A stretch of 64,000 nucleotides of DNA from Amaricoccus macauensis (GTDB taxonomy: Bacteria > Pseudomonadota > Alphaproteobacteria > Rhodobacterales > Rhodobacteraceae): NCBI RefSeq assembly GCF_014201905.1, contig NZ_JACHFM010000001.1:248001-312000 (forward strand), given 5' to 3'. The translations under genes were made by a program, and so were the position numbers. The number at the start of each line of letters is the position of its first letter. Position 1 is the stretch's first letter. Shown in pieces: positions 4,811-33,110 of this stretch. A model generated the notes under the pieces. That model was not told the origin of the DNA. It saw only the letters and a list, made by a program, of their open reading frames with translations, and made no database searches.

Positions 4811-6219
4811 CCACCGCGACCGCAACGGCTGATGGCGACGTCCACACCACCGGCCACGAGCTGACGCACACCACCATCGTTCGGCAGAAGCCGCTGATGG
4901 ACATGCGGCAGATCCTGCTGATGAACCTCGGGTTCTTCGGCATCCAGTACAGCTTCGGGATGCAGCAGACCGCGATCAACCCGATCTTCCAGTTCATCGG
5001 CGCCGACGCCCACAGCCTGCCGATCCTGAACCTCGCCGGCCCGATGACCGGCCTCCTGATCCAGCCGATGATCGGCGCGCTCAGCGACCGCACCTGGAGC
5101 CCGCGCTGGGGCCGCAGAAAGCCGTTCTTCCTGATCGGTGCGGTCGGCTGCTCGGTCTGCCTCTTCCTCTTCCCGTTCGTCTCGGCGATCTGGATGGCGG
5201 TGCTGCTGCTCTGGCTGCTCGACGCCTCCAACAACACCGCGATGGAGCCATACCGCGCCTTCATCGCCGACAAGCTGCCGCCTTCGCAGCTCGGCAAGGG
5301 CTTCCTCGCCCAGAGCTTCTTCACCGGGTTCGGCATCACGCTCGCCAACATCTCGCTCTTCGTCTTCCAGACCATGATCACGGGCGCGACCGAGGCCGGC
5401 ATCCCCTACTGGGTCGTCGGCTCGTTCATGCTCGGCGCGGTCTGCTCGATCGGCTCGGTGCTGGTTTCGGTGCTGACGACGCCGGAGATTCCGCCGACCG
5501 AGGCCGAGCTCAAGGCGCTGCGCGAGCACAAGGGCAGCGCGCTCGGCTTCGTGCGCGAGATCTGGGACGCGATCGTCGAGATGCCGGTCGAACTCCGCAA
5601 GCTCGGCCTCGTCTACCTGTTCCAGTGGTACGCGATGATGTGCTACTGGCAGTTCGTGACGCTCTCGATGGCGAAGTCGGTCTGGGGCACCACCGACGCC
5701 CATTCCGACGGTTTCCGCGAAGCGGTCGCCTGGACCGGTCTGATCAACGGCTGGTACAACATCGTCACCTTCTCGGTCGCGTTCTCGCTGGTCGCCATCG
5801 CGCGGCGCCGGGGGGCGAAGTTCGTGCACATGGCCTGTCTCCTCTGCGCGGCGGCCGGGCTGCTGATCTTCCCGCACCTGACCAACAAGTACGCGCTCTT
5901 CGTCCCGATCATCGGCCTCGGCATCGCCTGGGCGTCGATCATGGGCGTGCCCTACATCATGGCGGTGCGGATGATCCCCTCGACCCGTTACGGCGTCTAC
6001 ATGGGCATCATCAACATGATGATCGTGGTCCCGATGCTGATCCACTCGTTCACCTTCGGCTGGGTCTACTCGAACATCCTCGGGGACAACCCGAACAATG
6101 CGATCAGCTTCGCCGGCATCGGCCTCGGCGTGGCCGCGCTCGCGATGCTCTGGATCAAGGAGCCGCCGATCGTGCGCGACGTGGACGACGTCGCGGCGAT
6201 GCCGGTCGGCGGTCACTGA
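4807..6219 (+). CDS. MFS disaccharide (sucrose-type) symporter
   Basis: 470 residues, about 12 membrane segments. The loop between helices 2 and 3 carries the DRTWSPRWGRRKPF signature seen in sucrose/maltose:H+ symporters related to plant SUT and animal SLC45 proteins. The N-terminus is cytoplasmic and polar for about 35 residues. It starts within the stop of the SRPBCC gene. The window therefore carries two independent uptake routes, this secondary carrier and the ABC system at 7996-13474, next to two glycosidases. Substrate by inference is a glucosyl-fructoside such as sucrose. Confidence 0.85.
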   Translation: MTTATATADGDVHTTGHELTHTTIVRQKPLMDMRQILLMNLGFFGIQYSFGMQQTAINPIFQFIGADAHSLPILNLAGPMTGLLIQPMIGALSDRTWSPRWGRRKPFFLIGAVGCSVCLFLFPFVSAIWMAVLLLWLLDASNNTAMEPYRAFIADKLPPSQLGKGFLAQSFFTGFGITLANISLFVFQTMITGATEAGIPYWVVGSFMLGAVCSIGSVLVSVLTTPEIPPTEAELKALREHKGSALGFVREIWDAIVEMPVELRKLGLVYLFQWYAMMCYWQFVTLSMAKSVWGTTDAHSDGFREAVAWTGLINGWYNIVTFSVAFSLVAIARRRGAKFVHMACLLCAAAGLLIFPHLTNKYALFVPIIGLGIAWASIMGVPYIMAVRMIPSTRYGVYMGIINMMIVVPMLIHSFTFGWVYSNILGDNPNNAISFAGIGLGVAALAMLWIKEPPIVRDVDDVAAMPVGGH

Positions 6220-6232
6220 AAGGGACATCTCG

Positions 6233-6703
6233 ATGCCAAGAATGACGGACTACCGCATCATCGTCGTCGGCACCGACGGCTCGGGCCTGGCCGAGCCGAC
6301 GGTGACCCGGGCGGCCTGGCTCGCCAAACGCGAGGACGCCGACCTGGTGATCGTCTGCGCCTACAGCGGGCTGTCGCGCCGCGACGAGGCAAAGAACGTC
6401 GCCACGGCCGGCGGCGACGTGCGGGTCGACGAGGTGCTCGGGCGCGCGGCGGCCAGCGAGGCGATGAACCGCGCCGTGGCGGTCGCGGCGGAGGAGGGCG
6501 CCACGGTCGCGGCGGCCCTGCTGCTCGAGGGGGAGCCCGCCGCCGCGCTGATCAAGACCGCGCGGGACCGGAAGGCGGAACTCCTCGTCGTCGGCGCGCG
6601 CCACGACCGCTCGCTCACCGAGCGCCTGCTCGGCACCGTCGCCACGGAGGTCACCAAGCGGGCGACGTGCGACGTGCTGATCGTCCGGCCACCCAAGGCG
6701 TGA
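6233..6703 (+). CDS. Universal stress protein, UspA family
   Basis: 156 residues, single Usp domain. It opens with a beta strand and the Asp of the nucleotide pocket (IIVVGTDGS), and the C-terminal half carries the ATP-loop region LLVVGARHDRS followed by LLGTVATEV and the closing strand CDVLIV. It sits 13 bases after the MFS gene and is presumably co-transcribed with it. A strong stem-loop follows the gene. Confidence 0.9.
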   Translation: MPRMTDYRIIVVGTDGSGLAEPTVTRAAWLAKREDADLVIVCAYSGLSRRDEAKNVATAGGDVRVDEVLGRAAASEAMNRAVAVAAEEGATVAAALLLEGEPAAALIKTARDRKAELLVVGARHDRSLTERLLGTVATEVTKRATCDVLIVRPPKA

Positions 6704-6725
6704 GACTTCCAGCCTGACCGAAGTT

Positions 6726-6761
6726 CGGGAGCGCGTGCGTTCGAAGGCTCGCGCGCTCCCG
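6726..6761 (+). terminator. Strong intergenic stem-loop
   Basis: CGGGAGCGCG (6726-6735) pairs perfectly with CGCGCTCCCG (6752-6761) between the UspA and hydrolase genes. There is no T-run after it, so it may be a Rho-assisted or partial terminator or an mRNA-stabilising stem that separates the SRPBCC-MFS-Usp transcript from the hydrolase-ABC part. Confidence 0.45.
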
Positions 6762-6820
6762 AGAAGCCAGCGGGGCCTACCGCCGGGCAACCGAAACCTG
6801 CCTCTGAACAGGACGACCCG

Positions 6821-7930
6821 ATGAGCCAGTACATCCATCCGAAAAGTCCGCAGACCTTCACGAACGGCATCCGGCATCCCGATCTCCACTTGTGGGACGC
6901 ATGGTCCTTCGTCGGCGATGGCGATGTCCTGCACCTCTATTCCCTGGCAGTCCCCAAGGCGAGGCAGGACGGCACGCCGATTACGGGCCCCGAGCGCAAC
7001 GACACCCCCTTTCACGTGCGCCACTTCTCATCCCATGACCTCGGGGCCTCGTGGACTGACGAAGGCAGCCTCATCGCGCCGCGCATCGGGCAAGGTCTGC
7101 CGGACTCGAGGACGATCTGGAGCGGCAGCATCGAGCCGCTGCCGGACGGCAAGAAGCTGCTCGCCTACACCGGACTGTACGCGCTGGATGCCGAGCACTG
7201 CTTCGCACAGAACATCATGCTGGCCCTGTCGGACGGATACGAGGTCGAGAGCCGGGAAGACGAGGCTCTGATCTGCCCGATACGGGATTGGAAAGCCATC
7301 ACCGATGCGGGCTACTACCTGGCTCCACCCGACGACATCGGCCATCGCGGAGGCGAGGGCGGGGGGCCGATATTGGCCTGGCGCGACCCCTTCGTGTTCA
7401 TCGACGCGGATGACCAGATCCATCTCTTCTGGAGCGCCAAGGCGGGGCCGAGAGTGGGCGCCATGGGGCACGGGCTCGTCCGGCGCGAGGGGCGACGGTT
7501 CCGGCTGGAGAAGCTCTACCCGCCGGTGACCATTCCGGACGGCAATGACGTGACGCAGCTCGAGCTTCCCAAGATCTACCACGACGCCAGGCGGGGGACC
7601 TACTATCTCATCAGCGCGACCTGCAACCGGATCGACGAGCGGCAGCCGGACGAGGAGCTGAGCAAGACGATCCGACTGCATCTTTCCTCGTCGCTGGACG
7701 GACCCTGGCGGCCCTGGAACCCGGAGGGCAGCGCCTTGCCGGGTCTGGAGGGTCTCTTCGGAATGACCGTGCTCGAGGCGGACTTCGACCGAGGGAGCCT
7801 GCTCTGCATCGCCCCCTACACCGGTGCCGGGGGGGACGAGCGGGGGCTGACGTTCTCTCCCTGTTACCGCATCGACCTCGATCCGGTGCGGGTCTCGATC
7901 CCGTCATACTCGGGAGCCGAATCTGGATAG
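6821..7930 (+). CDS. Clan GH-J glycosidase (GH68/GH32-like)
   Basis: 369 residues, five-bladed beta-propeller glycosidase. The retaining active-site triad can be placed: nucleophile Asp26 in HLWDAW, transition-state stabiliser in the RDP motif (WRDPF, 188-190), and acid/base Glu248 in QLELPKIY. A WSGS segment near 100 matches the conserved blade motif. There is no signal peptide, so it should act on imported sugar in the cytoplasm, unlike classical secreted levansucrases. Likely beta-fructofuranosidase activity on sucrose or a short fructan; hydrolysis versus transfer cannot be decided. A second GH-J enzyme lies at 11420. Confidence 0.82.
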   Translation: MSQYIHPKSPQTFTNGIRHPDLHLWDAWSFVGDGDVLHLYSLAVPKARQDGTPITGPERNDTPFHVRHFSSHDLGASWTDEGSLIAPRIGQGLPDSRTIWSGSIEPLPDGKKLLAYTGLYALDAEHCFAQNIMLALSDGYEVESREDEALICPIRDWKAITDAGYYLAPPDDIGHRGGEGGGPILAWRDPFVFIDADDQIHLFWSAKAGPRVGAMGHGLVRREGRRFRLEKLYPPVTIPDGNDVTQLELPKIYHDARRGTYYLISATCNRIDERQPDEELSKTIRLHLSSSLDGPWRPWNPEGSALPGLEGLFGMTVLEADFDRGSLLCIAPYTGAGGDERGLTFSPCYRIDLDPVRVSIPSYSGAESG

Positions 7931-7995
7931 GCGTTGACGCCAGTGAACGGGGATCGCCGGGATCCCGAGCCAACGACGAACACAGGAGGAAGACC

Positions 7996-9264
7996 ATGAC
8001 CATGCTGACCCGGGTGAGCGCGATCCTGCTCGCCTCCACCTGCCTCGCTGGCGCAGCCGCGGCGCAGGCCGAGCTCACCTTCTGGCAGCACGGGGCCGGC
8101 AACCCGTGGGAGCCGCGGCTCTTCGGCCAGATAGTGGAAGATTTCAACGCCTCCCAGTCGGACTGGAAGGTGACGCTCCAGCAGTTTCCGCAGGCCGCCT
8201 ACAACGACTCGGTGACTGCGGCGGCGCTCTCGGGAGAACTGCCCGACATTATCGACGTCGACGGGCCGCTGATGCCGAACTGGGCCTGGGCGGGGTACTT
8301 GGCGCCGCTCGAGATCACCGAGGAGGAGCTCGAAGGCTTCCTGCCCGGCACGATCGGCCGATGGCAGGATCAGATCTACTCGGTCGGCCTTTGGGACGCG
8401 GCCGTGGCGATGATCACCCGCAAGTCGACGCTCGAGAAGTACGGCATCCGCGTCCCGACGCTCGGGGAGCCGTGGACGGGCGAGGAGTTCAACGCGGCGC
8501 TCGAGACGATGAAGGAGAGCGGCGACTTCGAGTATCCGCTCGACCTCGGCATGTGGGACAAGGTCGAGTGGTATCCGTACGCCTTCTCGCCCTTCCTGCA
8601 GAGCTTCGGCGGCGACATCGTCGACCGCTCGACCTACCAGACCGCCGAGGGCGTGCTGAACGGCGACGCGGCGATCGCGTTCGGCGAGTGGTGGCAGGGC
8701 CTCTTCACGGACGGGCTGGTGCCTGGCACCTCGCAGGATCCCGCCGACGGGAACCAGGCGTTCGGATTCCGCGACGGCAAGTACGCGATCGTCTGGTCCG
8801 GCAACTGGAACGGGGCCGGCGTGCTGGAGGCCTTCGGGGATGACGCGCTGTTCCTGCCGGCCCCGGACTTCGGGAATGGACCGAAGATCGGCGCGGCTTC
8901 TTGGCAGTTCGCCGTTTCGGCCCAGAGCGAGAACCAGCAGGGCGCCAACGCCTTCATCCGCTTCGCGCTCCAGGACAAGTACCAGGCGATGTTCTCGGAC
9001 GCCTCGGGCCTCGCGCCCGCCACGGCGACCGCAGCGCAGATGACAGAGAATTATAAGGAGGGCGCGCCGATGGCGGTCTTCTACGATCTCAGCGCCGCGC
9101 AGGCGTTGGTGCGGCCCGTCACCCCCGGCTACGTGGTGCAGAGCGCCGTGTTCCGGAAGGCAGTCTCCGACATCGCCGACGGAGCCGACGTGGCGACCGC
9201 CCTCGACGCGGCGGTCGACGAGATCGACGCCGACATCGAGAACAACCAGGGCTACGGCCACTGA
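7996..9264 (+). CDS. ABC sugar-binding protein (family 1)
   Basis: 422 residues with a Sec signal peptide (cleavage after about residue 24, AAAAQA/E) and a mature start LTFWQHG typical of family 1 binding proteins of CUT1 importers. Periplasmic capture of an oligosaccharide for the two permeases that follow. Aromatic residues typical of sugar stacking are abundant (WAWAGY, WDKVEWYPY, WSGNWNG). The start is fixed by ACAGGAGG 7 bases before the ATG. A ghost copy of its first codons lies 3.9 kb upstream. It is followed by a strong stem-loop, a common way to keep binding-protein message in excess over permease message. Confidence 0.92.
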   Translation: MTMLTRVSAILLASTCLAGAAAAQAELTFWQHGAGNPWEPRLFGQIVEDFNASQSDWKVTLQQFPQAAYNDSVTAAALSGELPDIIDVDGPLMPNWAWAGYLAPLEITEEELEGFLPGTIGRWQDQIYSVGLWDAAVAMITRKSTLEKYGIRVPTLGEPWTGEEFNAALETMKESGDFEYPLDLGMWDKVEWYPYAFSPFLQSFGGDIVDRSTYQTAEGVLNGDAAIAFGEWWQGLFTDGLVPGTSQDPADGNQAFGFRDGKYAIVWSGNWNGAGVLEAFGDDALFLPAPDFGNGPKIGAASWQFAVSAQSENQQGANAFIRFALQDKYQAMFSDASGLAPATATAAQMTENYKEGAPMAVFYDLSAAQALVRPVTPGYVVQSAVFRKAVSDIADGADVATALDAAVDEIDADIENNQGYGH

Positions 9265-9325
9265 GCCGAGCGTCGCACGCGTGCGACTCCGCCTAAGTTG
9301 CTGAAATTACACGAATAGCTTCAGG

Positions 9326-9391
9326 GCGTTAACCTGGCTTCAACCGATGTTAACGCGCTGATCCGGCCCCCCTTCCTCCCAGGGGGGCCGG
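9326..9391 (+). promoter_or_regulatory. Two inverted repeats between binding protein and permease
   Basis: GCGTTAAC (9326-9333) with GTTAACGC (9349-9356), then a perfect 10-base-pair hairpin CCGGCCCCCC (9363-9372), loop of 9, GGGGGGCCGG (9382-9391). The second is a very stable stem between the binding-protein and permease genes, as seen in maltose-type operons where it stabilises upstream mRNA or attenuates downstream expression. The first could be an operator. Confidence 0.6.
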
Positions 9392-9421
9392 ACTCGATCC
9401 ACCCACTCCGGGGAAGAGGCC

Positions 9422-22706: not shown

Positions 22707-23984
22707 ATGAACGCCCCCGTCCGATCTGACCTCGACCGCCTCGCCGGCCTGGGGCTGCGCCTCGAGCACCGCCCGGTCGATGCGCTCATCCCATACGCCC
22801 GCAACGCCCGCACCCACAGCGAGGCGCAGGTGGCGCTGATCGCCGGCTCGATCCGCGAGTTCGGCTTCACCAACCCGGTGCTGGTCGATGGCGAGAGCGG
22901 CATCATCGCCGGCCACGGCCGGCTGCTGGCGGCGCGCCAGCTCGGGCTCCGCCAGGTGCCGGTGATCGAGCTTGCCCATCTCACCCCGGCGCAGAAGCGG
23001 GCCCTGGTGCTCGCCGACAACAAGCTCGCCGAACGCGCCGGCTGGGACGAGCAGCTGCTGGCGCTGGAAGCCGGCGAGCTGGCCGAGCTTGGCGTCGATC
23101 TCTCCACCCTCGGCTTCGAGGCAGGCGAGATCGACGACCTGCTGCATGGCGATGCCGCCGATCCGCGCGAGGAGGAGACGCCGGAGGTGCCGGCCGACCC
23201 AGTATCGCGCCCCGGCGATCTCTGGCTCTGCGGCACGCACCGGGTGCTCTGCGGCGACGCCACAGTCATCACCGATCTCGAGCGGCTCATGGCGGGACGA
23301 AAGGCTGACCTCTGCTTCGCCGACAGCCCCTACAACGTCGACTATGCCGGAGGCGTCGGGGCAGAGAAAGCCGGCAAGGGCCGACGCATCCTGAACGACG
23401 CGCTGGGCGATGGATTCGAGCGCTTCCTCTACGATGCGTGCGTGTCGATCATCGCACACACGGCCGGCGCAATCTACATGTGCATGTCTTCAAGCGAGCT
23501 GCACACCCTGCAGAAGGCGTTCGTCGCCGCAGGTGGGCACTGGTCGACCTTCATCATCTGGGCGAAAGACCGCTTCACGCTCGGGCGATCCGACTACCAG
23601 CGGCAGTTCGAGCCGATCCTCTACGGCTGGCCGAAAGGCGGCAAGCACCACTGGTGCGGCGCGCGCGATCAGGGCGACGTCTGGTTCATCGACCGGCCGA
23701 GCCGCAATGACCTGCATCCGACCATGAAGCCGGTCGACCTTGTTGAGCGGGCGATCCAGAACTCGAGCCCGCCCGGCGGGGTGGTGCTCGACCCGTTCGG
23801 CGGCAGTGGCACGACGCTGATTGCGGCGGAGCGTACCGGGCGCGCTGCCCGGCTGATGGAGCTCGACCCGGCCTACGTCGATGTCATCATCGAGCGCTGG
23901 CAGGGGTTCACCGGCAAGGCGGCCACGCTGGAGGGCGACGGGCGCAGCTTCGCCGAGGTGGCCGCCGAGCGGAGGCCATCATGA
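22707..23984 (+). CDS. ParB-fused DNA methyltransferase
   Basis: 425 residues. Residues about 20-90 form a ParB/Srx-like nuclease-fold domain (LIPYARNARTHSE; GIIAGHGRLLAA). Residues 170-400 form an amino-methyltransferase with motif IV written DSPY (206-209) rather than the usual DPPY, and motif I DPFGGSGTT near the C-terminus, the beta-class order. It probably methylates adenine or cytosine N4 in island or phage DNA without a cognate nuclease. Next come a DUF7220 gene (ATGA overlap) and a small terminase gene, the normal order in these prophages. Confidence 0.9.
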   Translation: MNAPVRSDLDRLAGLGLRLEHRPVDALIPYARNARTHSEAQVALIAGSIREFGFTNPVLVDGESGIIAGHGRLLAARQLGLRQVPVIELAHLTPAQKRALVLADNKLAERAGWDEQLLALEAGELAELGVDLSTLGFEAGEIDDLLHGDAADPREEETPEVPADPVSRPGDLWLCGTHRVLCGDATVITDLERLMAGRKADLCFADSPYNVDYAGGVGAEKAGKGRRILNDALGDGFERFLYDACVSIIAHTAGAIYMCMSSSELHTLQKAFVAAGGHWSTFIIWAKDRFTLGRSDYQRQFEPILYGWPKGGKHHWCGARDQGDVWFIDRPSRNDLHPTMKPVDLVERAIQNSSPPGGVVLDPFGGSGTTLIAAERTGRAARLMELDPAYVDVIIERWQGFTGKAATLEGDGRSFAEVAAERRPS

Positions 23985-24202
23985 AGCAGACGCGGCGGCA
24001 CTCGGCCTTGGAGGCGATCGTCAACACCGTCGTCGGCTACGTCCTAGCCGTGCTGACACAGATGGCGGTGTTCCCGCACTACGGAGTTGCGCTGCCGCTG
24101 GAGCAGAACCTCGCGATCGGCGGCATCTTCACCGTCCTGTCGCTGGTCCGCGGCTACGGGCTGCGCCGGGTCTTCGAGGCCTGGCGCATGCGGCAGGGGT
24201 AG
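23981..24202 (+). CDS. DUF7220-like small membrane protein
   Basis: 73 residues with two hydrophobic segments (NTVVGYVLAVLTQMAVF and NLAIGGIFTVLSLVRGY) and a basic C-terminus. It starts within the methyltransferase stop codon (ATGA). Such proteins commonly sit between methyltransferase and terminase genes in alphaproteobacterial prophages; role unknown. Confidence 0.75.
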   Translation: MKQTRRHSALEAIVNTVVGYVLAVLTQMAVFPHYGVALPLEQNLAIGGIFTVLSLVRGYGLRRVFEAWRMRQG

Positions 24203-24204
24203 CT

Positions 24205-24693
24205 ATGCGCGGCCGCAAGCCCACACCCACCTCGCTGAAGCTGCTGCACGGCAACCCCGGGCATCGGCCGATCCGCGGCGACGAGCCGAAGCCGCCGGCC
24301 AGCCAGCCGAGCTGCCCGGCGCATCTCTCGCCTACCGCCAAGGCGGAGTGGAAGCGGCTGGCACAGAGCCTGAATGCCATCGGGCTGCTGACCCAGGCCG
24401 ACCGGGCCGCCTTCGCCGCCTATTGCCAGGCTTACGGCCGCTGGGTGGAAGCCGAGCGCAAGCTCGCCGAGACCCCGGTGATCCTGAAGACCCCTGCAGG
24501 TTACGTCCAAGCCTCACCGTGGCTCGCCATCGCCAACAAGCAGCTCGAGCTGATGGCGAAGTTCATGGCGGAGATCGGGCTCACCCCCTCGGCGCGCAGC
24601 CGGCTCTCGGTGCAGATGCCGAGGGGGCCGAAGCCATGGGACTACCCCCACGACCCCGAGGGGCTGATCGCCACGCCATGGGAGTTCGACTGA
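24205..24693 (+). CDS. Phage terminase small subunit, P27 family
   Basis: 162 residues opening with MRGRKPTPTSLKLLHGNPGH, the characteristic P27-family start, then helical repeats (LSPTAKAEWKRLAQSLNAIG; DRAAFAAYCQAYGRWVEAE). It recognises phage DNA for packaging together with a large subunit. No large terminase, portal or capsid gene follows, so the packaging module is truncated and this gene is probably a relic. Confidence 0.88.
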   Translation: MRGRKPTPTSLKLLHGNPGHRPIRGDEPKPPASQPSCPAHLSPTAKAEWKRLAQSLNAIGLLTQADRAAFAAYCQAYGRWVEAERKLAETPVILKTPAGYVQASPWLAIANKQLELMAKFMAEIGLTPSARSRLSVQMPRGPKPWDYPHDPEGLIATPWEFD

Positions 24694-25170
24694 GAGCGCT
24701 TAGGGCCGGCCGTCGCCACCCCACGGTGACGCCGACGCCGCGATGGTCGTCGAGGAATCTTAGTGGGCGACGCCACCAGCTTCGGGGCAATTGCGCCGGA
24801 GGTTGAACGACCCGGGATGGTGAACCGGCGCGGAGGCCGCTGGTATCTCTCCGCGGTGGAGATCCTACCGGAACGGCAAAGAACCCGCCTGAGCCATTTC
24901 CCGTGGACGCAGATCGGCCCGCGCAGACCTTGCTCCCGGTTCGTTGACACATCCGTACCGCAGGTCAGATCAGCCGGGCGCATCAATGCGGGTCGGCTGG
25001 GCGCTGCCGACCGCCATCGCGCTTCAGCCCTGACAATGCCTGTTCTCACGACAAGGTCCCAACAAGGTCCCACGGAGTGCTTGACTGCGAATTGGATAGG
25101 TAATATCCTGTTCTATCTAGTGATTGCTCCAACAGTCTCTTTGATAGCCTTAGCGGCAATCGAGGTGCGC
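24694..25170. other. Non-coding junction between phage and RiPP segments
   Basis: About 480 bases without a convincing gene, probably the scar where the late phage genes were replaced. It has a tandem CAAGGTCCCA repeat near 25052-25071. The last 90 bases become visibly AT-richer and carry the promoter candidate listed next. Confidence 0.55.
25081..25109 (+). promoter_or_regulatory. Promoter candidate for RiPP locus
   Basis: TTGACT (25081-25086), spacing 17, TATCCT (25104-25109): a near-consensus -35 and a moderate -10 in an AT-rich patch 62 bases before the precursor start. Read by eye only. Confidence 0.45.
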
Positions 25171-25683
25171 ATGACTTTCCGTGTGCGAGACTTAGTGATC
25201 AACATCCTCCCGGCGGGAACCAACGAGCGCGACCGGCTGGTCTGCGGCGGATGCTCCTTTGGCTTCAGTCACTGTGGAGGCAGTTGTGATTTCGCAACGA
25301 TCTGCACCTATAGTGGCTGCCGCGAGTGCTCTGGAGCGTTTACCTGCCTTGGCGCCTCGGCTTGCGGGGGGTGCACGCTGAACGTGACCTGCTTTCCCAA
25401 CACGTGCGGGGCGTTGACGTGCGGCTGCACCGAGAGCGCATCGGTGCTCTTCGGCGGCGGGGGCGGTCGCGCTTTCACTCCCGAGGCATTGGCTGCACTC
25501 AAGCTTCAGCTCCGCGAGGCTTTGCGCGAGGTGGATCGTGCCGAGCAGGTGGTGGCCGAGCAGATGAAGCCCCATTCGGTCGAGGAAGTCGAGGAGCTCG
25601 AGAAGAAGCTCCGGGACGCTCTGGAGGAACTCAGTGCTCGCAAGGAGCAGTTGCGCGGCCGGGAAGGTGGATCAGAGAGCTGA
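25171..25683 (+). CDS. Cysteine-rich RiPP precursor candidate
   Basis: 170 residues. The start ATG is preceded by GAGGTG. Residues 1-24 form a short N-terminal part (MTFRVRDLVINILPAG). Residues 25-91 hold 14 Cys interleaved with 16 Ser/Thr and many Gly (CGGC, CGGSC, CRECSG, CGGCT, CGCTES), then a Gly5 spacer. Residues 101-165 are a charged heptad-type coiled coil. The Cys/Ser/Thr mix and the following kinase-LanC gene suggest a substrate for lanthionine formation. The long helical C-terminus is unlike ordinary lanthipeptides. It could also be a disulfide or metal-binding repeat protein. No family recognised; no Sec signal. Confidence 0.65.
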   Translation: MTFRVRDLVINILPAGTNERDRLVCGGCSFGFSHCGGSCDFATICTYSGCRECSGAFTCLGASACGGCTLNVTCFPNTCGALTCGCTESASVLFGGGGGRAFTPEALAALKLQLREALREVDRAEQVVAEQMKPHSVEEVEELEKKLRDALEELSARKEQLRGREGGSES

Positions 25684-25728
25684 CTTCCTGGCGCCGACCG
25701 GGACTTGGGCGTCGATTCAGGTCGTCAC

Positions 25729-26901
25729 ATGAGAGTTGAAGTCGCCGGGGCCGAGTACCGTGCGGGTTCGGCGTACCGTTTCGTGCCGGTGGACCGTCTC
25801 ACCGCAGAGGAACGGTCCGCTGTCGGCAATCTCGCGGACGACCCGGAAATTTACGCCTTGCTGATCCCGCTGCGCGACGGTGCCCAGACCGTCAAGGCAA
25901 TCGATAGCCAGACCGCGCTTGTGTACCTTACGCTTCGGGAGCCAGGTCCTCTGCCTTCGTTGATGCGCGCGGCGTTGAGAGACGACCTCTCCGCCGCAGT
26001 CGCGCGGTTAGTGCTCGACGGCGTGCTGGAGATCCGCACTGGTGCCGACTTCGTCTCGGGGGCGGACGCGGTCGCACTCCTGAACCTGGACAGCAATCCA
26101 AGCGACCCTCGAGGCCGGCTGGCGCGGTTGTCGATCCAGGCGCTCCGGTACGGACAGCACTTGGACATTCAGAACGTTCAGACGCTCGCGGGCCGTCTCT
26201 ACGCCTTCAATCGTCTGGTCCTCACCCCCTCGTGGGGCCAACGACTGCCGACACGGGAGTCGACGGCGGTCTATCTTGGTATTGGCGACGACCGCGGCTC
26301 GGTGCGACCGCCCAGCCCCGGCTGGGTCGCCCAGGGAGGGGCGATGACATCATCGAGCTGGCTCGCGTGGCACTCGGGCGCGCCGATCAGTCGCGCGGGT
26401 CACGGTCCCGTGTACAAGCTGTACGTCAGTCCGCAACCTTCGGCGGTAGCGGAGTGCCTTCGAATATGCGCCGAGATCGTTCGCAAGCGAGGGGCACATG
26501 CATTGAAGGTGGGAGCCGACGTCCACGGGCTTCTGCGTCCGGACAAGCTCGTGGCCTATTTCGGCACCTTCGAGTCTCTCGGGGAGGCAGCGGCCTCGCT
26601 CGCACCGCGGCTTGCCGGCATGCCTGCGCACGGCGTCCCCTTCACTGCGGAGATCACACCTGACGGCATGCTGTCCTGGGGCGTCGATCCTCCTCGGCAG
26701 GAACATGAGTTGGCTTGGACGGGGGAAAGCTGGCGCGTGTGGGTGGCCGGGCGGCTTGCCTCCGCGCTTGTCGCGGCCAGGACGGCCTCGAATTCGGGCG
26801 AGCCCTGGCGCTACGCGTTGGAGCGGATCGCGCTTGAAGGCATCGATCCATCCATTTGGGTGCCGAGCCAGGGAGTGTTCGCGGCGGGGACCGGAGCATG
26901 A
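25729..26901 (+). CDS. RiPP-locus partner protein (possible lyase)
   Basis: 390 residues, no confident family. Residues about 40-105 look like a winged-helix peptide-recognition module (IYALLIPLRD ... LSAAVARLVLDGVLEI). The second half has mixed alpha/beta with AHALKVGADVHGLLRPDKLV followed by VAYF near 257-278, reminiscent of HopA1-like lyases used with stand-alone kinases in class V lanthipeptide pathways. No lyase domain is seen in the next protein although it has kinase and LanC parts, so this gene is the logical candidate for the elimination step. Ends overlapping the next start (ATGA). Confidence 0.55.
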   Translation: MRVEVAGAEYRAGSAYRFVPVDRLTAEERSAVGNLADDPEIYALLIPLRDGAQTVKAIDSQTALVYLTLREPGPLPSLMRAALRDDLSAAVARLVLDGVLEIRTGADFVSGADAVALLNLDSNPSDPRGRLARLSIQALRYGQHLDIQNVQTLAGRLYAFNRLVLTPSWGQRLPTRESTAVYLGIGDDRGSVRPPSPGWVAQGGAMTSSSWLAWHSGAPISRAGHGPVYKLYVSPQPSAVAECLRICAEIVRKRGAHALKVGADVHGLLRPDKLVAYFGTFESLGEAAASLAPRLAGMPAHGVPFTAEITPDGMLSWGVDPPRQEHELAWTGESWRVWVAGRLASALVAARTASNSGEPWRYALERIALEGIDPSIWVPSQGVFAAGTGA

Positions 26902-28676
26902 GTGAGGACATCACTACGCGGTTCGTGCTGCAGCCGGACGTCGTGTTCACGCCGGTTCAGGACCTGCCAATGGCCGCGCGCGAACAGCTCGGCGCAGACG
27001 AAGGCGACTATGCCTTGAGTCGGACGATGTCACGCGCTCCCGTGCGGGTACTCGATCGGGACTCTGCCGAGCTCCTGCAGCGCTTTCGATCGCCGACCCG
27101 TATCGTGGACGCCATCGTGAGCTACAGTCGCGATCACCGCGCCGATGCCGAGGCCACATTGGAGGAGGCGTTCCCGATGCTCCAGCGCCTGATCGACAAT
27201 CAGGTTCTGGTGGTAGCGACCTCAGATGCGAGCACGTCAGCTCAGTCCGGGCTGAAGGTTGGTGATCTATTCGAGGGCTCCCTGGTGCTGGCGACCGTTC
27301 AAGTGCTCGAGGACACCGAGGTGCATCTCGTCCGGACGGAGGACGGTGTTCATGCAGCGCTGAAGCTGTTCAATGCCCCGGAGGGTGCCTGCTCTCTGCA
27401 GCAAATGAGAGGAGAGGAGGCTATCCTCCGCCACCTCGACGGCAGTGTCGCACCGCGTGTGCTCGTCGCCGGGGATCGAGCTGGCGTGGCGTACCTCCTT
27501 CTCGAGTGGCGTCCCGGAGTCTCTGCAGAGGTCGCGGCAGCGGAGGCACGGCGTGCCGGCCGAGAGTCTCGGCAGGCCCTCTTGAACATCTGCTGTTCGA
27601 TCGCGAATGCGTACGCTCGCCTGCACGCGGTCGGTGTGGTGCATGGCGACGTCCATCCCCGCAACATCCTCGTCGACGGCGATGGGGCGGTGACTATCAT
27701 CGATTTCGGTTACGCGGTAATGCCCGCTAGCGTTGAGCCACGGACGGCCAGGGCGTCGCGGGGAGGAATTGCGTTCTTTCTCGAGCCCGAGTACGCGCAG
27801 GCGCTGCGGGCCGGCGAACCGAGTCCGCCCGCCACGGCGCTCGGCGAGCAATACGCGGTCGCGGCCCTTCTGTACTTGCTTGTGACGGGCAGCCACTACG
27901 TTGATTTCTCGCTCGAGCCGGACCAACTGCTTGGACAGATAGCCGAGGAGCAGCCGCTGCCCTTCGCGAAGCGGAACACGCGGCCGTGGCCGCAGCTCGA
28001 GCATCTCCTTCTGAAGTGTCTCTCGAAGCGTCCTGAGGACCGCCTTCCGGATTTGTCCGTGGTGGCCGAGCGGCTCGGAGCTATAAGGGATGCTGTTCCC
28101 GTGCCTGCGGTAGGACCGCGCGGCGACATGGCACCGGCCCCGCAACTGCTCGACGGGGTGCTCAGGCGGGTCGGGTTCGAGGGTCCCCTGGTGTCGCAAG
28201 GACTTCCACAGCCGCCGACTAGCTCGCTCAACTACGGTGCTGCCGGTATCGCCTATGCGCTGTACCGGCTTGCCGGCGTGCGTGACGATCCTGTTCTCCT
28301 CGCCCTGGCGGACGTGTGGGTGAGCCGTGCGCAAGCGCACATGGACGACGACGACGGCTGCTTCAGTGACGAGCTGGACATCACACCCGACACCGTCGGC
28401 CGGAGCTCACTTTTTCACTCCGGCGCGGGAGTGGAGGCAGTGTCGGCGGTCGTTGCGCACGCCCGCGGGGACGTTGCGGCGTGCAAGGTCGCCGTCAGCG
28501 CCTTTCTCCAACGCTCACACTCGCCGTCTCGGGGACTTGATCTCACCTTGGGCCGCTGCAGTTCACTCCTCGGCTGTTGCATTCTCCTCGAGACGCTCGT
28601 GACCGCAGACGCCGCCGAGCACGAGGAGATCCGGCGTTTTGGGATCGCACGGCCCAAGAGATCCGAGCTGAGATAG
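26898..28676 (+). CDS. RRE-like/kinase/LanC lanthionine synthetase, N-terminal part
   Basis: 592 residues before a premature TAG. Residues 38-105 resemble a PqqD-like recognition module (VRVLDRDSAELLQRF ... LIDNQVLVVA). A Ser/Thr kinase spans about 122-395 with Lys156 (ALKLF), Glu in RGEEAIL, catalytic HGDVHPRN (249-256) and DFG 269-271. From about 415 a LanC-type toroid begins, with repeats LNYGAAGIAY, LFHSGAGVEA and LGRCSSLLGC. The remaining four LanC repeats, including the zinc site, continue in the -1 frame (next entry). Predicted to phosphorylate and cyclise the Cys-rich substrate encoded just upstream. One missing T in TTTT (28637-28640) would restore one 800-residue enzyme. Confidence 0.78.
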   Translation: MSEDITTRFVLQPDVVFTPVQDLPMAAREQLGADEGDYALSRTMSRAPVRVLDRDSAELLQRFRSPTRIVDAIVSYSRDHRADAEATLEEAFPMLQRLIDNQVLVVATSDASTSAQSGLKVGDLFEGSLVLATVQVLEDTEVHLVRTEDGVHAALKLFNAPEGACSLQQMRGEEAILRHLDGSVAPRVLVAGDRAGVAYLLLEWRPGVSAEVAAAEARRAGRESRQALLNICCSIANAYARLHAVGVVHGDVHPRNILVDGDGAVTIIDFGYAVMPASVEPRTARASRGGIAFFLEPEYAQALRAGEPSPPATALGEQYAVAALLYLLVTGSHYVDFSLEPDQLLGQIAEEQPLPFAKRNTRPWPQLEHLLLKCLSKRPEDRLPDLSVVAERLGAIRDAVPVPAVGPRGDMAPAPQLLDGVLRRVGFEGPLVSQGLPQPPTSSLNYGAAGIAYALYRLAGVRDDPVLLALADVWVSRAQAHMDDDDGCFSDELDITPDTVGRSSLFHSGAGVEAVSAVVAHARGDVAACKVAVSAFLQRSHSPSRGLDLTLGRCSSLLGCCILLETLVTADAAEHEEIRRFGIARPKRSELR

Positions 28677-29323
28677 TTGCTTTCCCCCCAATCGGCGATC
28701 CTGGCGAGATCGCATACATGGGCGTCGCTCACGGGTGGGCGGGCATCCTCTACGGTTTGCTCCTGTGGGACGAGGTGACCGGACGCGGCCCTGCCTCCGA
28801 ATTGGCCGTGCGTCTGGACCAACTCGCCCTCTCAGCCCAGCCATGGGGCCGCGGCGTCCGATGGCCCATTCGCAGCGGGGGGCTCACCAGCTATATGGGG
28901 GGATGGTGCAACGGCAGCGCCGGGTTCGTGCATCTCTTCACACTGGCTTGGCGTACGACCAGAGACGACCGGTGGATCCGGCTAGCCGAGCAGGCCGCGT
29001 GGACGACTTGGGAAGCGGACGAGCCGGTGAGTTCCCTGTGCTGCGGCCGCAGCGGCCGGGCGTACGCCCTGCTCAACCTCTACCGACACACAGACGAGGC
29101 GGCGTGGCACGAACGCGCGTGCGATCTTGCTCTGATCGCTTCCGCCCATGCGGTCGACGGCGTTGAGCAGGGTCGCGTCGATAGCCTTTACAAAGGTCTT
29201 CTCGGCGTCTCGCTCCTCGCAGCGGAGATCGAAGTGCCGACCCTAGCGAGGATGCCGTTCTTCGAACCGGAAGGATGGCCGAAGCCCGAGACCCCTGCAC
29301 CGACAGCGAGTATCCTGAGGTAA
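28640..29323 (+). pseudogene. LanC cyclase C-terminal part, frame-shifted
   Basis: 228 codons continuing the LanC domain after an apparent 1-base deletion. It resumes WDRTAQEIRAEIV and has four toroid repeats: MGVAHGWAGILYG with the active-site His, GWCNGSAGFVHL with the first zinc Cys, SSLCCGRSGRAYALL with the second and third ligands, and DSLYKGLLGVSLL. The CCG triplet replaces the usual CHG, giving a three-Cys zinc site like that of ProcM-type synthetases. No ribosome site or start codon fits an independent protein. Either a real inactivating frameshift or a homopolymer sequencing error. Confidence 0.7.
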
Positions 29324-29404: not shown

Positions 29405-29560
29405 ATGGTGCGTCGGACGAAGGGGTGGAGCGCGGAGGAGAAGCGGTCGGTCTGTCGCCAGACGACGGCGCCCGGTGCTTCCCTGGCGCAGGTGGCGGGG
29501 CGCTACTCGCTGAACCCCTCGCGCATGCAGGCCCTTCGCGCCGCCATGCAAGACTCGGGC
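29405..29560 (+). pseudogene. Transposase OrfA fragment (IS66/IS3-like)
   Basis: A frame opening MVRRTKGWSAEEKRSVCRQT then PGASLAQVAGRYSLNPSRM has the helix-turn-helix of small transposase subunits, then degenerates. No downstream transposase is found. It is insertion-sequence debris directly after the lanthionine synthetase, and may have removed export or protease genes of that locus. Family assignment is tentative. Confidence 0.5.
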
Positions 29561-29804
29561 GCGCCGCCAGCCGCCGAAGCTCCGGCCCGTGCGACCCGCC
29601 GGCGCAGGCCCGCTCTTCGGGGCAATCCCGGCCGCTTGCCACGACGCTTGCTGGCGTGCAGTCGTCAGCTAAATACCCATGCCATCTCGTCTCCAGCGGC
29701 GCGCGCCGAAGGCCGGCATATCGACAAGCAGCTCGAACTCAGGCATCATCGGCCCGGCTCCCATCCTCTCGCGGCGCCCGCGAAGGCTCGGGGGATGAGC
29801 AAGC

Positions 29805-30068
29805 CTATCGCACGGAAATGCTCGCCCTGAGCACGTGCCACACGAACTGCTCCCCGACCGCTCCGCACGGGCACTTCATCTCCCGCGTGATGTCCAGCAA
29901 TCGCTCATAGGCCGGATAACGGTCGTGCAGCCGGTGCGTCGCAATGCGCCACGTCCGGTCGCAGGCGAGACATCGGGCGAAAACGCAATCCGTCGCGGCC
30001 ATGTCCTCCAGGCGGACCTGATAGCGCGGGCCGAGGATGACCTTGGTGTACGGCATGGTGGAAAACAT
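29805..30068 (-). CDS. Small zinc-ribbon-like hypothetical protein
   Basis: 87 residues if it starts at 30068; an internal ATG at 30056 is equally possible, as neither has a clear ribosome site. Two Cys pairs (FARCLACDRTW and MKCPCGAVG) separated by about 35 residues suggest a zinc ribbon. Family not recognised by name; similar small proteins occur in alphaproteobacterial islands. Bases 29561-29804 before its 3' end hold nothing recognisable. Confidence 0.55.
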   Translation of the reverse strand: MFSTMPYTKVILGPRYQVRLEDMAATDCVFARCLACDRTWRIATHRLHDRYPAYERLLDITREMKCPCGAVGEQFVWHVLRASISVR

Positions 30069-32352: not shown

Positions 32353-33110
32353 TCAGGACACCCTTTGACGTCCCTCCTCCCAGCGGACGCTGACAGCATC
32401 GTCGGTCAGGGTGACGAGCCGGCTGTTGGCGATGGTCACGCGGCGGGTGTAGCGGCCGAGATAGGCGAGCACCTGCTCGGGGTCGCCGAAGGGCGGTTTG
32501 GCATAGACCACCCAGTCGATCCGGCGCCGCGACGTGCAGTGGACGGCGAAGGCGCGGGGCTCGGCGAGCGGAGCGAGGTCGCCGAAGAAGCGCAGCCCGC
32601 CCTCGGCGAAGGCGGCGGCGAGACGTTCGAGCAAGAGCCGCCGGAATAGCCGCCCGAGCACCTTGACCGACATGAAGAACCCAGGCGGGCAGGCGATCCA
32701 GCGCGTGCGGTCGGGCGAGAGGCCGCCGCCCGGCCCGATGCAGTGGACATGCGGATGGTGCTGCATCGCCTGGCCTCAGCTATGCAGCACGGCGACGCCG
32801 CCGATCTCGGCACCGAGATGGGGCGGGTCGGCCGCAATCAGGCGCAGCGTCTCGGCGGCGGCGCGGAACAGGATGGCGTAGACCGCCGCTTGTTCTGGAA
32901 CGCGATCGCCGCGACCGGCGCCGGCACGGTGAAGACCACGTGGAAATAGGGAACAGGCAGCAGTTCTGCCCGCCGTGCGGCGACCCAGGCTTCCCGCGCC
33001 CGGCCTGGCCCTTGGGAGAGTGACGGTTGCGGCAGGAATTGTAGGCGATCGCGGTGTTGCCGCAGTCGGGACAGCGGCGGCATGCCCGCTTGTCTTCGCC
33101 GTGGTGTCGA
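32353..33110 (-). pseudogene. IS91-family transposase remnant
   Basis: Pieces of an IS91 Y-type transposase in three frames on the minus strand: a zinc-finger part (SCRNRH), then WVAARRAELLPVPYFHVVFT, then AAVYAILFRAAAETLRLIAA, then MQHHPHVHCIGPGGGLSPD and YLGRYTRRVTIANSR. At least one internal stop (HS*) and two frameshifts, and the C-terminus is cut. IS91 relatives mobilise neighbouring DNA by rolling-circle transposition, so this remnant may mark how the catabolic block to its right was acquired. Confidence 0.85.

Follow-up and report, generated by a model that had tools for sequence, protein, structure and literature searches.

A three-gene cassette in Amaricoccus macauensis

The stretch analyzed here, hereafter the window, comprises 64,000 nucleotides of Amaricoccus macauensis DNA (contig NZ_JACHFM010000001.1, positions 248,001 to 312,000). 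It carries three adjacent genes that look like a compact cassette for a ribosomally synthesized and post-translationally modified peptide (RiPP) of the lanthipeptide type. The first (25171-25683) encodes a 170-residue candidate precursor with 14 Cys and 16 Ser/Thr between residues 25 and 91 (25243-25443). The second (25729-26901) encodes a 390-residue protein, P0002, which structure prediction casts as a stand-alone phospho-Ser/Thr lyase. The third is a synthetase gene spread over two frames: the first (26898-28676) covers a predicted RiPP recognition element (RRE), a Ser/Thr kinase and the first part of a LanC domain, the latter two placed by Pfam matches, while the second (28577-29323), matched by PF05147, holds the rest of LanC with its Cys motifs. 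All three genes lie on the forward strand; 45 nt separate precursor and lyase, and the synthetase start at 26898 overlaps the end of the lyase gene by 4 nt. The initial annotation of this DNA had described a Cys-rich protein of this composition, a tight operon and, by implication, a frame break in the synthetase. The residue counts were confirmed in the translated open reading frame (ORF), and the gene spacing and the break are as it described.

The break falls inside LanC. A LANC_like match starts in the first piece, where PF05147 is aligned over profile positions 5-117 with 19.7 bits, under the cut-off of 23.2 on that piece alone; the remainder lies in the second piece (74.9 bits, profile positions 157-348 of 350). 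The window copy may therefore be inactive or carry a sequence error. The 4.8 Mb genome contains one match each for the lyase and the synthetase.

Conservation of the gene set

As a single query, the lyase found no relatives in genome contigs, viral contigs or phages, and in 299 genomes of the phylum it matched nothing but itself. Two plasmid relatives gave a three-sequence alignment (A1), which led to 29 loci in GTDB genomes. The resulting 31 loci outside the window (L002-L032) include the near-copies L002/L016, L004/L005 and L009/L011. They come from nine bacterial phyla (Pseudomonadota, Bacillota, Acidobacteriota, Actinomycetota, Nitrospirota, Vulcanimicrobiota, Gemmatimonadota, Bacteroidota and Elusimicrobiota) and from one archaeal carrier, a Nitrososphaerales metagenome-assembled genome whose assignment may be wrong. 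A plasmid search with the Paenibacillus synthetase led to the two records already given by the lyase query, and the record labels the Paenibacillus lyase and precursor as hypothetical proteins. The window precursor (P0001) had no match among plasmids.

The synthetase lies directly downstream of the lyase on the same strand in 28 of the 31 loci; in L002 and L016 it is one gene off on the opposite strand, and L022 meets a contig end. A precursor candidate adjoins the lyase or the synthetase in all 29 relatives with enough flanking sequence, L027 and L030 having too little upstream to judge. In L020 the candidate sits downstream of the synthetase. Some candidates are weaker: L009 has a tail only, L018 and L031 are weak and L022 is short, and omitting L018, L022 and L031 changes little. 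Neighbor proteins were clustered by BLASTP between ORFs of at least 90 aa, and the clusters present in more than two loci were the synthetase together with other kinases (29), the lyase (26), a precursor group (9) and a two-component signaling group (7). The last was rejected as part of the cassette, its members (9 of 16 scanned) being common two-component signaling proteins. Because the gene set recurs in 31 other loci, its arrangement reflects more than chance, and we regard both set and linkage as firmly established. The initial annotation had tied its proposal to conserved linkage and suggested mining genomes for the three genes; the trio recurs across phyla.

The separate lyase

What is the 390-residue protein? 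Nothing usable came from searching the sequences of solved structures, whether with P0002 or with an alignment (A2) of the window and 28 of the 31 relatives (29 rows; L002, L003 and L031 left out). An AlphaFold2 model built from A2 reached a predicted local distance difference test score (pLDDT) of 88.4 and a predicted template modeling score (pTM) of 0.85. Its best Foldseek match was 9dk3_B (E 4.1e-7), chain B of the class V lexapeptide dehydratase LxmKY, which we take to be LxmY. Further matches were two Pseudomonas syringae effector structures (4.4e-5), SalKC, CuvL and SpvC; one of the effector structures, 4RSW, is named HopA1 in the accessible part of PMC10604976.

Seven residues are invariant in the 29 rows of A2: K230, Y232, K260, R270, D272, K273 and Y277. 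Excerpts of PMC9486802 give the active-site residues of CaoY as Arg187, Lys219, Arg229 and Tyr236, and those of SpvC as Lys104, His106, Lys136, Arg148 and Tyr158. By these assignments, K260, R270 and Y277 have the spacing of CaoY K219, R229 and Y236, and K230 falls on SpvC Lys104. A profile of the lyase also aligned locally with the lyase domains of 13 class III/IV synthetases (129 columns, E 2.7e-5, probability 74), whereas kinase, LanC and reversed-lyase controls gave E-values of 0.35-0.76. In this alignment K230-L-Y232 meets KLH/KIH, K260 meets FK and DKLVAYF meets GKFITVYP, while R270 meets no Arg. A LanY/HopA1/SpvC lyase fold is thus well supported by the model. The initial annotation had reasoned that the lyase would have to be this separate protein, an idea that an unrelated fold would have undone; the predicted fold and the retained active-site residues agree with it, and the protein would then act as the lyase.

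The RRE-kinase-LanC synthetase

The N-terminal domain of the synthetase (residues 1-113; 26898-27236), described in the initial annotation as a winged-helix-like module standing where a lyase would be expected, models as an RRE (pLDDT 84.1, pTM 0.74). Predicted strands at residues 15-19, 38-42 and 50-52 are followed by helices at 54-64, 69-79 and 84-100, in the order of three strands and then three helices given as the RRE feature in the part of PMC12710340 available to us, a text in which the word kinase does not occur. In Foldseek, the top eight places go to PqqD, TigE, TbiB1 with leader (two entries), MibB, ThcOx (two entries) and TglHI, the best with E 4.5e-3 and probability 1.00. Since the E-values are 4.5e-3 and above, the evidence lies in the identity of these matches more than in their size. 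TigE, MibB and ThcOx carry RREs themselves. We consider this domain likely to be an RRE. It shares its predicted fold with RRE-dependent enzymes such as PqqD, TbiB1, TigE, MibB and ThcOx, and differs from them in sharing its chain with a Ser/Thr kinase and LanC. In two Cupriavidus loci this module is found ahead of a 2-oxoglutarate (2OG) oxygenase (PF13640 tested for L016).

The kinase domain lies at approximately 27252-28097 (Pkinase match, residues 145-383) and scores over the cut-off both with PF00069 (53.4 bits; cut-off 31.7) and with PF01636 (43.8 bits). Its catalytic-loop pattern is present in 28 of 31 kinase rows, the others being L025, L026 and L031. The C[NH]G and CCG motifs, which would supply the metal-ligand Cys of LanC, occur in all 29 LanC rows that reach that part, a count leaving out the truncated L013, the cut L024, the kinase-only piece of L030 and the first piece of the window. 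Among the 30 relatives with a synthetase, 26 encode it as a single full-length ORF; L005 has masked bases, L013 is truncated, L024 meets a contig end and L030 is split. In L030 (1383-3831), RRE-kinase and LanC are separate genes. The fusion proposed in the initial annotation is thereby borne out, with PF00069 and PF05147 matched over two frames in the window and the RRE resting on the model.

Could this be a class III or IV synthetase of the ordinary kind that has lost its lyase domain to a gene of its own? The kinase-LanC half scores best with the class IV model, at 123-169 bits in eight relatives and with matches beginning past the models' lyase part; the Cys motifs of LanC are kept, and the lyase profile can be aligned with lyase domains of classes III and IV. 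However, none of the eight intact relatives tested (of 30) approaches the curated NCBIfam cut-offs of 650 bits for class IV and 575 for class III, the best reaching 168.5 and 97.1, and the two window pieces, at 71.5/58.7 and 83.5/31.8 bits against the curated class III/IV models, miss them as well. An RRE-like domain occupies the place of the lyase, and among solved structures the lyase comes closest to the class V LxmKY complex. When kinase and LanC were combined in a quick tree, with the first window piece included and L013, L024 and L030 left out, 28 cassette rows separated from 13 class III/IV references with support of 100, long branches being flagged. We consider a split class III or IV enzyme improbable, and an ordinary class IV synthetase was rejected on the missed cut-offs and the RRE in the lyase's place.

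The precursor: leader, core and tail

An N-terminal motif resembling F-x-x-[KR]-D-L recurs among the 28 precursors compared (near-copies L005 and L016 dropped). In the window it lies at residues 3-12, within the leader-like segment FRVRDLVINILP (residues 3-14; 25177-25212), which is predicted to bind the RRE as a strand. A loose version of the pattern is found in 24 of the 28, against 0.33 on average and at most 3 in shuffled N-termini; L003, L019, L031 and the second L032 copy lack it. The strict pattern [FY]xx[KR]x[LIV]x[VI]x[VIL] occurs in 21 of 28, against an average of 0.03. L008 has two leader motifs in a single chain. In L003 (9011-9763) the precursor consists of three near-identical helix-core repeats with an FRTVDL stretch ahead of each core, possibly giving several products from one chain.

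The cores vary across relatives and hold 3-19 Cys each; that of Cupriavidus is proline-rich, and that of L025 (7309-7935) is a run of TCKRTNDDD-like units in which 12 of 14 Cys have Ser/Thr at +3, not +4. After the last Cys comes a helix-prone segment (in the window residues 103-162; 25477-25656), which may serve as a follower. The fraction of A, E, L, K, R, Q and M is 0.59 in these tails versus 0.18 in the cores, and all 28 precursors show this excess in the tail. Between L004 and L005, whose lyases and synthetases are 96% identical, 14 of 14 leader columns, 44 of 49 C-terminal columns and 49 of 65 core columns are identical. The core is sandwiched between a leader motif and a helix-prone tail, and the core-first layout of the initial annotation has to be given up, the motif ahead of the core recurring in relatives.

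Is the Cys-rich protein instead an unmodified metal-binding or disulfide-rich protein, with the kinase, LanC and lyase acting on something else? Cys-rich segments of such size do occur in metal-binding proteins, and one of 27 precursors matches the 4Fe-4S model Fer4_23 (E 2.6e-5), a point on that side. No family is matched by more than two of the 27, among the listed matches (25 of 36 Pfam families and nine NCBIfam families), so the common metal-binding family that the initial annotation had named as fatal to its proposal did not appear. The leader motif recurs while the core varies, the precursor is linked to dehydration-cyclization enzymes, and Ser/Thr partners for its Cys at +3 to +5 far outnumber those in shuffles, a pairing that metal binding does not need. 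The metal-binding protein was rejected on the missing common family and the pairing code, and we regard this explanation as highly improbable.

A Cys to Ser/Thr spacing code

The pairing was measured by holding Cys fixed and shuffling the other residues within each core. Across 24 cores (L003, L005, L016, L018 and L022 left out), Ser/Thr stands at +4 from Cys 98 times against 39.2 expected (z 11.6; 0 of 2000 shuffles). When residues and offsets are ranked over 27 cores, Ser at +4 comes first (z 10.8) and Thr at +4 second (z 5.6); +3 dominates in L006 and L025. Over 28 cores, taken without L005 and L016 and with one of the three L003 repeats, one-to-one pairing at +3 to +5 accommodates 193 of 208 Cys against 100.6 expected (z 15.9, 0 of 1000), and the z remains 15.3 without the window core. 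In the window, all 14 Cys receive a unique Ser/Thr at +3 to +5, using 14 of the 16; 7.4 were expected and none of 1000 shuffles reached 14. As a control, 90 segments with at least 4 Cys from other ORFs of the same sequences gave z 0.6 downstream and 1.6 upstream. Because offsets 3-5 were fixed only after a first scan, the +4 test is the cleaner of the two.

If these pairs are ring partners, the code strongly predicts that each Cys joins a dehydrated residue downstream of it. In most canonical lanthipeptides the Ser/Thr precedes the Cys. The core might be dehydrated and LanC still make such canonical rings, or add another thiol, the +4 spacing then being a feature of a repeat fold; the polarity of most lanthipeptides and the short-repeat appearance of the L007, L011, L019, L025 and L026 cores favor this. 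Yet upstream of Cys the 28 cores offer 93 pairs where 100.1 are expected, no more than chance, and downstream z is still 12.3 when those five and the weak L018, L022 and L031 cores are removed. We consider this explanation unlikely, while giving it more weight than the other alternatives, and the canonical direction itself was set aside on the chance-level upstream pairing. For comparison, in the accessible text of PMC12291118 the Lan6-10 ring of rosin A1 depends on Dha-Dhb-X-X-Cys.

Genomic surroundings

A sigma-70-like promoter match lies upstream of the precursor gene (25081-25109, forward strand); the consensus scan gave 2 matches in the region against 0.4 expected from shuffles, and such a match alone is no proof of function. 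Just upstream of the cassette are a phage terminase small subunit gene (Terminase_4; 24190-24693) and a ParB-like/DNA methylase gene (22707-23984), which suggest a prophage or island remnant beside it. Transposase matches downstream, HTH_Tnp_1 at 29405-29830 and Y2_Tnp at 32353-32766, fit mobility.

Upstream of the Cupriavidus precursor, L002 encodes a LanB-type dehydratase (Lant_dehydr_N and _C; 6250-9411) and a Cupin_8 protein (5333-6247). Two dehydration routes, LanB-type and cassette, may meet in this cluster, which also has the RRE-2OG oxygenase and the proline-rich core. Three of five actinobacterial genomes with the cassette (L034, L035 and L036) also have a class III synthetase over the curated cut-off.

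A proposed pathway

How would the three proteins work together? The RRE of the synthetase would bind the N-terminal leader segment of the precursor as a strand, and the kinase would phosphorylate Ser/Thr of the core. The separate LanY-like lyase would then take off the phosphate to leave dehydroalanine or dehydrobutyrine (Dha/Dhb). LanC, with its presumed Cys-Cys-Cys metal set, would join each Cys to a dehydro residue some four positions further along the chain, so that the window precursor could carry as many as 14 small thioether rings in a row. The C-terminal segment would be retained as a follower or scaffold. Computation supports the gene set, the predicted folds, the active-site residues, their conservation, the linkage and the spacing code, whereas each chemical step, the ring direction, leader binding and the tail's role are inferred.

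We put the probability at about 85% that the locus is a compact lanthipeptide-type RiPP cassette with a separate lyase, an RRE-kinase-LanC fusion and rings running from Cys to downstream residues. The lanthipeptide assignment is likely, its thioether part drawing on the enzyme set and the spacing code. Several observations, beside the Fer4_23 match, weigh against it. Pfam and NCBIfam scans assign the 390-residue protein to no family, Pfam HopA1 is found in 2 of 29 lyase members only (best E 0.007), a global alignment of the lyase profile with class III/IV lyases has a probability of 16.5, and the position of His106 in SpvC and LanKC is Tyr in 29 of 29 lyases. For the RRE, all Foldseek E-values exceed 1e-3 and Rickettsia PKMT methyltransferases also appear from rank 9; TbiB1 heads a sequence search of solved structures at E 0.43, beside unrelated viral proteins; and matches of single members are mixed (DUF7782 in 5 of 30, best 0.0036; ThcOx in 3 of 30, 0.011; PqqD in 1 of 30, 0.012). 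Eight of 27 cores (L003, L008, L018, L024, L026, L028, L029 and the first L032 copy) do not individually reach P 0.05, and offsets 3-5 were chosen after the offset scan. No shared protease or transporter was seen among the neighbors, as judged only by BLASTP between ORFs of at least 90 aa, and the cassette has no known product. The window's own synthetase is frame-broken, many relative loci lie in metagenome bins, and the archaeal one is of doubtful assignment.

Relation to known lanthipeptide classes

The cassette resembles several classes and coincides with none that we found described. With class V (LanK plus LanY) it shares, by the model, a separate HopA1-fold lyase working with a kinase, and LxmKY chain B is the lyase's best structural match; LanC is also present in subgroup Vb, as a separate protein according to the available part of PMC12291118. 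Unlike class V, its kinase is fused to RRE and LanC and best matched by PF00069, where a stand-alone APH-type kinase (PF01636) would be expected; its lyase has Lys where CaoY has Arg187; and its long precursor has a Cys-rich middle between leader and tail. With class IV LanL and class III LanKC it shares the order of Ser/Thr kinase then LanC in one chain and an alignable lyase pattern of KL(H/Y)VS, FK and K..YP; with class IV it shares the Cys motifs of LanC that would serve as metal ligands. Unlike these, it has an RRE instead of a lyase domain ahead of the kinase, misses their curated cut-offs and forms a separate branch in the tree. The initial annotation had pointed to this displacement of the lyase from its place before the kinase in class III/IV chains, and the lyase does lie in a gene of its own by the Foldseek result. 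Streptococcal class VI, too, has a kinase-based synthetase, but its lyase and cyclase domains are truncated and its substrate is short, as the review PMC10676316 describes it in the part available, features that the cassette does not have. In the accessible part of the 2023 ThurKC paper (PMC10604976), the core enzymes of classes II-V have no identifiable RRE.

No description of an RRE-kinase-LanC protein with a separate lyase was found in open-access PMC full texts, the subscription literature lying outside that search; together with the missed class III/IV cut-offs, this fits the earlier remark that the locus matched no known class, as far as the texts covered go. A published mining rule, in the accessible part of PMC7268733, assigns a LanC protein to class III or IV if it has a PF00069 match as well. 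Under that rule the cassette would be misfiled, and it may sit unrecognized in earlier lists. Overall, the interpretation in the initial annotation is supported, the thioether chemistry being what we would expect of such enzymes.

What does the cassette mean for lanthipeptide biology? It combines in one set components that mark different classes: the lyase resembles that of class V, the kinase and LanC resemble those of class IV, and an RRE is present as well. Its carriers include Paenibacillus and Cupriavidus plasmids along with Acidobacteriota, Actinomycetota and Bacteroidota. We lean, with some reserve, toward a further widespread lanthipeptide class, in which an RRE-kinase-LanC protein and a separate lyase would make up to 19 small rings, with the Cys N-terminal of its dehydro partner and mostly an i to i+4 spacing; the product may be a protein-sized scaffold between leader and tail, not a small antibiotic. 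The spacing code allows ring partners to be predicted from sequence, and its uniform direction offers a clear test of what sets the ring direction of LanC. Should the rings exist, the precursors of greatest length would in our judgment rank among the most densely cross-linked ribosomal peptides.

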